Source of the DNA: Bifidobacterium animalis subsp. animalis ATCC 25527
Lineage (GTDB): Bacteria > Actinomycetota > Actinomycetes > Actinomycetales > Bifidobacteriaceae
Assembly: GCF_000260715.1 (NCBI RefSeq)
Contig: NC_017834.1
Coordinates: 1,116,001 to 1,180,000, forward strand
Reading direction: 5' to 3'
Length of the DNA stretch: 64,000 nt
The notes beneath the pieces are model-generated. The model was given only the letters and a program-made list of their open reading frames with translations. It was not told where the DNA came from and made no database searches. Below are positions 4,598 to 6,601 of this stretch, one piece after another (position 1 is the first letter of the stretch; every line of letters begins with the position of its first letter). The translations under genes were made by a program, and so were the position numbers.

Positions 4598-5791
4598 TCA
4601 TTCGCCGGTCTCATATGGTTCGACACGCACCGGCAACGCACGCTTGATATACGCATCCATACCGGGGACGGTGAACGCCACCTGACCCCGCCGTGGTGCA
4701 TAGATCAATCCCAATTCGATGAGTTGATTGCGCACGTTCGTCAACGAAGAGTTCGGCCGACCAAGACTTCGGGCCACATCGGCGGTGTCCACAGCATCGG
4801 CGTCTTCAGCGGCCATCGCCGCCATATAGTCTCGTCCCAATTCGCTTGCACGCTGCCAACGGGAGATGTAGAGGCCTTGGTCCAACGTACGCCATGCTCC
4901 CGGCAGGCCGCGTTCGACCGCATCTATCGTCATCGGACTTGAATCTGCAGCGTCCCATGTGGCCGAACCATACGCCTGAATGAAATACGGATACCCCATG
5001 CTGCGTTCCACCAACTCGGCCAACGCCGTATCGTCGAACGACCTGCCCGCCTCCTGCGCGGGGCTCTGGAATCCCAGCGCACTCGCCTCTTTCGAGAGCG
5101 ATCCAAGCCGATGGTACGTGAACAGGCGTTCCGCGTAAGAACGTAGTTTGGTGAGCACGCCTGGCAGATTGGGCAATCCTGCGCCCACGATGAAGAATGG
5201 AAGATCCTGCTGCCCCATACGGTGCTGGATGCCGATGAGCGCGCCAAGCACTTCGTCGGACATCTCCTGCAATTCATCGACGAACATGAACAACCCGCTC
5301 TTGCACGCCTTGAGCTGCCTCGACAACTCCTCGACAAGCAGCTCCAAACGGTACGCATCGGTCTGTATCTGGGCGTCCTGCGGTTCCGTATCCACCGTCG
5401 CCTTAACGATGCCGAAATCGAATGACAGGTCCTTCACATACGAGAATGCGTTTTTCAACGCCTCCCTCAACGCGCGGTCGCGCATGCGTTGCGTCGCCAT
5501 CATCAATTCATGGAAGATGGCATCGTATTCCTTGCGCGCGTCCCCGTTCGCCTCGCATTGCACAACCATCATGCCATGCGCGCGGGCCTGTTTCGCGAAC
5601 TGCAGCAGCAGCACCGTCTTGCCCATGCCACGCAGACCGCTGTAGATCATGCCCCGATCGACGAACCCCAGCTCCGTACGGACGAGCAATTGTTCCATAT
5701 CCGCCAAATCGGCATCACGCCCGACAAGATCGCGCGGCGACTTGCCCGATCCCGGCATGAACGGGTTGAGCGCCTTCGTGGAAACCTCCAT
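4598..5791 (-). CDS. P-loop ATPase with C-terminal winged-helix-like domain
   Basis: A 397-residue protein of the AAA/STAND-like 'ATP-binding protein' type. The N-terminus has 'PFMPGSGKSPRDLVGRDAD', then Walker A 'SGLRGMGKTVLL' near residue 46 and Walker B 'GLFMFVDELQEM' near residue 172, with a sensor-like 'FFIVGAGLPNLP'. The last 90 residues ('ADVARSLGRPNSSLTNVRNQ', then 'LGLIYAPRRGQVAFTVPGM') look like a winged helix, as in Orc/Cdc6-like and NTPase regulators. The start is chosen for AGGAGA six bases upstream. Facing it divergently is a P-loop kinase gene, with a striking phased TATAT array between them. The cellular role is unknown. Confidence 0.75.
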   Translation of the reverse strand: MEVSTKALNPFMPGSGKSPRDLVGRDADLADMEQLLVRTELGFVDRGMIYSGLRGMGKTVLLLQFAKQARAHGMMVVQCEANGDARKEYDAIFHELMMATQRMRDRALREALKNAFSYVKDLSFDFGIVKATVDTEPQDAQIQTDAYRLELLVEELSRQLKACKSGLFMFVDELQEMSDEVLGALIGIQHRMGQQDLPFFIVGAGLPNLPGVLTKLRSYAERLFTYHRLGSLSKEASALGFQSPAQEAGRSFDDTALAELVERSMGYPYFIQAYGSATWDAADSSPMTIDAVERGLPGAWRTLDQGLYISRWQRASELGRDYMAAMAAEDADAVDTADVARSLGRPNSSLTNVRNQLIELGLIYAPRRGQVAFTVPGMDAYIKRALPVRVEPYETGE

Positions 5792-5830
5792 GTCATCTCC
5801 TGTGTGTGAGTTGTATGCAGTTTCATTTCC

Positions 5831-5900
5831 ATATATCACTGTATATTGCACTATATTCAACTATATCAGTGTATATTCGCATATATCATCGTATATACAC
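5831..5900. repeat. Seven consecutive decamers of the form N-TATAT-NNNN
   Basis: From 5831 the sequence can be cut into seven 10-base units, each with TATAT at positions 2-6 (units starting 5831, 5841, 5851, 5861, 5871, 5881, 5891). Units 1, 4 and 6 share a longer core TATATCA-NN-GTATAT that runs into the next unit. The array occupies most of the gap between two divergent P-loop genes, ending 40 bases from the ATPase start on one side and 44 bases from the kinase start on the other. It is probably a multi-site operator, a phased bendable element, or both. Confidence 0.85.
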
Positions 5901-5944: not shown

Positions 5945-6601
5945 ATGAGCGCACATGAGATAAACACCCGTCTGATCATCGTCGAAGGACTGCCAGGCAG
6001 CGGCAAGAGCACGACGGCCGCAATGGTCGCCGCCGAACTCGAAGCGCGGGGGAAGGACGTCGTCTGCGTCGACGAAGGAGCCGCGAACCACCCCGCCGAT
6101 GTCGGCGACTACGACTTCCCTGATTTCGCGAGCGAACGCGCCACGATACTCGATACATGGCGCGCGTTCGCAGCCCACGCCGAACCTGATACGACCTACG
6201 TGTTCAATTGCGTCCTGCTGCAGAATCCGATGTGCGAGACGATGATGCGGTTCGGCATGAACGAGGATGAGTCACGACGGTATATCGGTGAAATCACGGC
6301 GATCATCGCGCCGCTGCATCCCGTCATCATCTACATCGACGAACCGGACGCGAAGTCGGCTATTGATGGTGTCCTCGACGAACGCGGCGATGGTTGGCTC
6401 AATGCCGTCATCGACTACCACACGGCACAAGGGTACGGTGAAGCGCATGGGTTGCGCGGATACGAAGGGTACATCGCGTGCCTTGAAGAGCGCAGAGAGC
6501 GGGAGCTGCGCATCCTACGTTCACTTCCGGTTGACAGCCACATCATCGCGCCATTGAGCGATGCCAAACGGATATCGACGGTGGTGGATGCGATACCGTG
6601 A
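5945..6601 (+). CDS. P-loop nucleotide kinase-like protein
   Basis: A 218-residue protein with Walker A 'VEGLPGSGKSTTA' at residues 12-24, a nucleotide kinase-like continuation 'AAELEARGKDVVCVDEG', and an 'IAPLHPVIIYIDEPDAKSAI' segment where thymidylate-kinase-like folds carry the strand before the lid. It resembles small annotated 'AAA family ATPases' or thymidylate-kinase-like proteins; the substrate is unknown. The ATG at 5945 is chosen because the conserved P-loop begins shortly after it. There is no Shine-Dalgarno upstream, so the message may be leaderless or weakly translated. It is divergent from the winged-helix ATPase across the TATAT array. Confidence 0.65.
   Translation: MSAHEINTRLIIVEGLPGSGKSTTAAMVAAELEARGKDVVCVDEGAANHPADVGDYDFPDFASERATILDTWRAFAAHAEPDTTYVFNCVLLQNPMCETMMRFGMNEDESRRYIGEITAIIAPLHPVIIYIDEPDAKSAIDGVLDERGDGWLNAVIDYHTAQGYGEAHGLRGYEGYIACLEERRERELRILRSLPVDSHIIAPLSDAKRISTVVDAIP

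Follow-up and report, generated by a model that had tools for sequence, protein, structure and literature searches.

The window, which is the whole 64-kb stretch of DNA analysed here, holds two divergent P-loop genes with a phased repeat array between them, as the preliminary description had stated. The gene on the minus strand (4598..5791) encodes an orphan AAA+ ATPase of the AAA_16 type with 397 aa. The gene on the plus strand (5945..6601) encodes a kinase-like protein whose match to PRK06761 scores 168.8 bits and stays under the model's cut-off of 270. The array spans positions 5830 to 5899 with no assigned strand and consists of seven decamers, in each of which TATAT takes an identical place (5832, 5842, ... 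5892). Its letters are CATATATCAC TGTATATTGC ACTATATTCA ACTATATCAG TGTATATTCG CATATATCAT CGTATATACA. The three TATATCA-NN-GTATAT stretches that had been pointed out earlier are found at 5832, 5862, and 5882, and in the orientation of the ATPase gene the unit is mostly RATATANNNN (GATATA or AATATA). On the gene side, GCATACAACT (5809..5818, minus strand) lies in phase with the array and is a candidate −10 region for the ATPase promoter. The divergent kinase gene may use the array as a common upstream element. Elsewhere in the window, three near-10-bp repeats TGTTATATAC are located at 2184 to 2213, 5′ of a GntR-family gene.

The ATPase is characterized by a P-loop (GLRGMGKT) and a DE box (FVDE). 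The Walker A and Walker B residues G52, L53, R54, G55, G57, K58, and T59 as well as D172 and E173 are invariant in all 31 aligned sequences, and the Pfam model AAA_16 matches above its own cut-off. No NCBIfam model matches at E ≤ 0.01, and a defence library gives weak matches only (best E 0.005). Relatives are mostly annotated as ATP-binding protein or AAA family ATPase in the records examined. The AlphaFold model (pLDDT 88) takes on an AAA+ core and a winged helix-turn-helix (wHTH), which supports the winged-helix-like C-terminus that had been proposed from the translation. This predicted domain follows the lid, as in the Orc1/Cdc6-STAND type, and covers approximately residues 315 to 388 (4628..4849, minus strand) with helices 317-328, 336-343, and 347-359 and a strand at 370-373. 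The best structural matches among those listed are PABY2304, SSO1545, and Orc2. The sequence GYPYF resembles the GxP motif of STAND proteins. The protein is predicted to be an Orc1/STAND-like AAA+ ATPase, whose C-terminal winged helix is presumed to be the DNA reader.

The phasing exceeds random AT richness, as had been claimed. In a scan of the whole window the array has the top five-unit period-10 score (0.64; runner-up 0.52, mean 0.26), and none of 500 dinucleotide-preserving shuffles of the ATPase upstream region matches it. The three-unit word ATATANNNNNATATANNNNNATATA occurs without mismatch only at the array (five overlapping matches in the whole 1.93-Mb genome), and with up to two mismatches it occurs at five further places in the same genome. 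The reversed-pattern control for such word searches is uninformative because the words are mirror-like. The nearest other proteins, two at 90 and 91% identity, include one that its source assigns to B. animalis; the genome is probably from this species or one close to it.

One of these five places, with one mismatch, is a phased array with a different unit (G000:C1:1014287-1014321, at about 1480-1530 of L049). It is built from GTTATAYNNN, with approximately five units counted by eye, and lies directly 5′ of a BrxA and BrxB pair (Pfam 106 and 105 bits, respectively) that is probably a BREX operon. BrxA was considered as a general binder of such arrays and rejected: a period-10 array, reached by 0 or 1 of 100 shuffles, was found in one of 20 BrxA upstream regions, that of the own genome. 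A 77%-identical BrxA in the sister species G067 has no period-10 array upstream. In this comparison the sequences L117-L119 do not give a fair test, since they start within the gene, and L121-L125 were left out.

Arrays at other copies of the ATPase gene

Among 112 genomes of the genus, 24 contain an ATPase match at E ≤ 1e-40; 22 full-length copies are spread over 21 of them, and the other three have fragments. A scan of the genome contigs with one protein gave two distant loci. A five-unit period-10 array (p ≤ 0.01) is located just upstream of 17 of the 22 full-length copies. The five copies above this threshold are L006, L008, L010, L034, and L038, where 14, 67, 16, 9, and 19 of 500 shuffles, respectively, reach the score; in 21 of the 22 copies, it is reached by at most 19. 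Periods of 7, 8, 9, 11, 12, and 13 give an array at 0 or 1 of 22 copies. The base identity upstream of the 22 copies averages 0.38 at lag 10 and 0.37 at lag 20, whereas the remaining lags between 4 and 25 give 0.24-0.31. As a control, promoters of other genes, 122 in number, were drawn from 20 ATPase loci and the window. A period-10 array passes p ≤ 0.01 at three of them, each of which is divergent from an ATPase gene and shares its array; the same five-unit test gives nine promoters at period 9 and three at period 11. The end of the array lies 9-91 bp before the start codon (median 39), as measured for 21 of the 22 copies with an automatically chosen start.

The loci are largely unlinked. The window locus and 20 others were compared over approximately 6 kb on each side (222 neighbour ORFs, with the surroundings of L039 left out). 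Of the 210 locus pairs, 11 have at least one neighbour in common at ≥40% identity; if a link requires at least two such neighbours, the 21 loci form 16 groups.

The unit differs between copies at constant spacing. It takes forms such as CTATAC, TTTAGATT, TATCT, GGAATAA, TATTTATA, and GCAT. The word is CTATACNNNN in L014 (ten units counted), TTTAGATTNN in L012, TATCTNNNNN in L015, GGAATAANNN in L017, and TATTTATAAG in L036; the L037 word is GCAT-based, and that of the L005-L011 group is loosely GATA-based. Where the word is asymmetric (L012, L014, L015, L036), all units of an array point in one direction. The arrays of L038 and L039, in contrast to the one-way arrays elsewhere, look two-armed: TTATTCC... 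is followed by ...GGAATAA, or something similar, in the opposite orientation. In G035, G052, and G018 the local three-unit word, searched with 2, 3, and 3 mismatches, is present only at the ATPase array (10, 4, and 4 overlapping matches, respectively). A single genome can contain different units, as at the copies L016, L043, and L062 of G010, and a core can also be common to two copies in one genome, as L005 and L061 of G005 are both GATA-based.

These words bear on the suggestion that the array is intrinsically bent or flexible promoter DNA, in which helix-phased TA steps act by their shape and require no specific reader. A TA step that recurs roughly once per turn is indeed present in most units inspected. 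However, the units within an array have G/C positions and a specific word in common (CTATACAGCA, TTTAGATT, GGAATAA), and a shape-only model needs no private word and does not account for the GCAT-based array of L037. Phasing at the control promoters is furthermore confined to the three that share an ATPase array. Bent DNA alone is thus disfavoured, and we judge it unlikely.

The trait extends to paralogues. In a sample of 20 chosen homologues at 24-32% identity, of which L074, L075, and L080 are from outside the genus, 16 have a four-unit array of period 9 or 10 at p ≤ 0.01 (12 at period 9, 6 at period 10, two in both). The same test gives 1, 0, 4, 3, and 1 of 20 at periods 7, 8, 11, 12, and 13, respectively. 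In the matched control, 8 of the 122 other promoters pass at period 9 and 4 at period 10 (three of which share an ATPase array), and 12 pass at either period. The five-unit period-10 test is passed by 5 of the 20. The paralogue words include TTTTTGATA (L067, L069), TTATATCTG (L062), and ATTCTTTTAT (L078, 10 bp). Beyond the paralogues, 15 homologues with 35-40% identity represent other families of the order, and a period-10 array was detected at two of them, of which L026 is convincing and L032 is not TA-based. Such an array was detected (p ≤ 0.01) in none of five plasmid homologues and not in the one phage-contig homologue examined; L126 is significant at period 12. Not all members of the superfamily therefore carry the array. 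A 9-bp paralogue used as query across the class (E ≤ 1e-60) gave a match in 2 of 296 genomes. Upstream of the ATPase homologue on a Paenarthrobacter plasmid (L128, 70 bases before 2992), a 17-base inverted repeat ACTATAAAGGAGTATCC...GGATACTCCTTTATAGT was seen by eye in place of an array.

The same data address a partition or replication site, at which an Orc-like ATPase would assemble on an iteron-like array; a segregation-type array had been among the earlier proposals. The Cdc6/Orc1-like fold fits this explanation, and so does the presence of homologues in 116 plasmid records out of 72,556. Against it, no partition or replication partner beside the array is common to the 21 loci, and no neighbour family is shared across them: no Pfam family occurs in more than four of 60 scanned neighbours (120 were listed), and no replication neighbour appears, among the 25 of 99 families listed in that tally. 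The array lies directly 5′ of the ATPase gene, and the six plasmid and phage-contig homologues have no significant 10-bp array. The segregation site was rejected on the missing common partner genes and on the single place of the local word in G035, G052, and G018, which is the ATPase promoter. A partition or replication function is accordingly considered very improbable.

Separately, a 12.7-kb contig of G067 (G067:C40, L170) carries several TATATAACTA clusters at about 7062, 11498, 11554, and 12578. The sequence near 11.6 kb resembles by eye the start of a ParA-type gene, and the clusters are possibly a different, plasmid-type repeat system.

The kinase locus in sister species

In two sister species, G067 and G043, the ATPase gene is absent at the kinase locus. 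A remnant of its 3′ end (4598..4647 of the window, minus strand) is retained beside the kinase, on the side away from the array. It contains 29 bases identical to the window, and its last residues are KHALPVCVEPYETGE and RRASPARVEPYETGE with the same stop, compared to KRALPVRVEPYETGE in the window ATPase. Since this remnant was left behind, loss of the ATPase in the sisters is likelier than its gain in the window. In the kinase region, the window differs from G067 at 39 of 700 bases and from G043 at 80 of 700, while G067 and G043 differ at 85 of 700. The kinase groups the window with G067 and not with G043, so the presence of the ATPase does not follow the kinase tree; these sequence comparisons make loss and regain, or allele exchange, possible at this locus.

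The array is retained before the kinase in both sisters, in phase and with its cores, as five units in G067 and seven units in G043. The two arrays differ by one exact 20-bp indel and at none of 52 other positions, and the flanks differ at 12 of 160 bases on the left and 3 of 24 on the right. Between these kinase loci (L147 and L148), the difference in array length thus amounts to two whole units, and the helical phase is preserved.

Such a change of whole units, as between G067 and G043, is what neutral tandem duplication would produce, by which the array would be a minisatellite that is AT-rich by chance. The pattern of substitutions is at odds with this origin. Compared at the same intergenic place, the window and G043 differ at 1 of 35 core positions and 15 of 35 spacer positions (p 9e-5), and two pairs of close ATPase copies (L007/L034 and L009/L010) differ at 5 of 68 core and 24 of 102 spacer positions (p 0.006), with the core columns of both comparisons chosen after inspection of the arrays. 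Conserved spacing with variable bases in between, which the preliminary description had named as a sign of function, is hence found where it was tested, in the close-copy pairs and between the window and G043. Spacers have diverged while cores and phase are kept, and the array recurs at 17 of 22 copies of one gene family and at few other promoters. Neutral duplication is given very little weight.

The sisters bear more directly on whether the ATPase is the reader. Because they keep the array without the ATPase, either the array outlives the gene, another reader exists, or the loss was recent. The array in these species may be a recent relic, may be read by another protein, or may serve the kinase. 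One alternative holds that the reader of the array is some other trans-acting regulator, or a different ATPase, and that the array mainly serves the kinase; its position next to the ATPase gene would reflect common control. The preserved phase and cores beside the kinase in two species without the ATPase fit this explanation. However, the kinase is rare, with a match at E ≤ 1e-20 in 6 of the 112 genomes of the genus, and its more distant copies L149 and L150 have no obvious array by eye. At other loci it is the ATPase that is accompanied by arrays, and the differing units of L016, L043, and L062 within G010 are not predicted by a single common regulator. We regard a different reader as rather unlikely.

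A proposed self-operator and related systems

The array is most reasonably read as a private self-operator of the adjacent ATPase, an assignment that we hold to be somewhat probable. Self-regulation by the ATPase had been suggested at the outset. It gains from the association across the gene family (17 of 22 copies, 16 unlinked groups, 3 of 122 other promoters), and it loses from the two sisters, in which the array persists and the ATPase is absent. That the word varies among copies suggests a reader encoded by the respective copy itself, although L005 and L061 are both GATA-based.

In the proposed mechanism, the C-terminal winged helix of one ATPase molecule would read one decamer. Units repeated every 10 bp (mostly 9 bp in the paralogous subfamily) would place successive molecules on one face of the helix. 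The equal spacing of one turn and the single direction of the asymmetric arrays suggest a head-to-tail row, in which neighbouring molecules would touch and bind cooperatively. The ATP state of the protein may set the length of the row. Since the array coincides with the expected core promoter, 9-91 bp before the start codon, the bound row would most likely repress the ATPase's own gene; in the window it may also affect the divergent kinase.

A wider proposal is tentative and, in our estimate, less likely than not. Each orphan Orc1/STAND-like ATPase gene would own a private, fast-diverging array with one site per turn, on which the protein would polymerize in line in a nucleotide-dependent manner and keep itself off until triggered. 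A copy-specific lock and key would prevent cross-talk between paralogues. The similarity of units was compared with that of winged helices (Mantel r 0.06, p 0.29, with crude unit registration and a predominance of close relatives) and with that of recognition helices (r 0.09, p 0.19), and partial tests were also null. As no co-variation was found in these tests, the lock-and-key part is put forward as a hypothesis. The common promoter architecture would offer a first handle on this class of single-gene ATPases, as a self-operator and as a readout of their trigger. The copies would also form a natural series of recognition words, which may illustrate how target choice by a winged helix can shift under a constant geometry of 9 or 10 bp. 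In the open-access literature, no paper was found that, by its title or the start of its abstract, deals with promoter arrays in this ATPase family.

Several known systems resemble parts of this arrangement. The archaeal Orc1/Cdc6 proteins, PABY2304, and SSO1545 have in common with the window ATPase the AAA+ core, the lid, and the C-terminal winged helix that are predicted for it. Orc1/Cdc6 proteins mark replication origins, and we know of no tandem 10-bp array at their own promoters. TnsC and MuB, which are among the structural matches listed for the ATPase, are AAA+ proteins that form rows on DNA. Their filaments contain several subunits per turn and have little sequence specificity, whereas the array in the window provides one unit per turn with a specific word.

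Two oligomeric wHTH-type systems are closer in their use of DNA. RdfS is described (PMC11963761) as a recombination directionality factor that assembles head to tail on DNA and controls promoters. Unlike the window ATPase, it is presented there as binding attP and the promoters of a mobile element, and no ATPase is attributed to it.

The geometry of the array is BldC-like, by analogy. In the account of BldC from Streptomyces (PMC5859096), each protomer occupies one 9-bp AT-rich direct repeat in a head-to-tail arrangement; the repeat number is variable, and the protomers form an extended filament at the promoter. Near-one-turn tandem direct repeats at promoters are likewise found at 17 of 22 genus copies and 16 of 20 paralogues, with the promoter placed by its distance from the start codon, and a wHTH-type reader is presumed here as well. 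BldC is described there as a 68-residue MerR-like protein that has no ATPase and controls a regulon. The product in the window is not a MerR-like wHTH protein of approximately 70 residues but a 397-aa AAA_16 protein; the array lies at the gene of its presumed reader, and the word changes by copy. The AAA+ reader of 397 residues and the change of word at a fixed geometry are what would be new compared to BldC.
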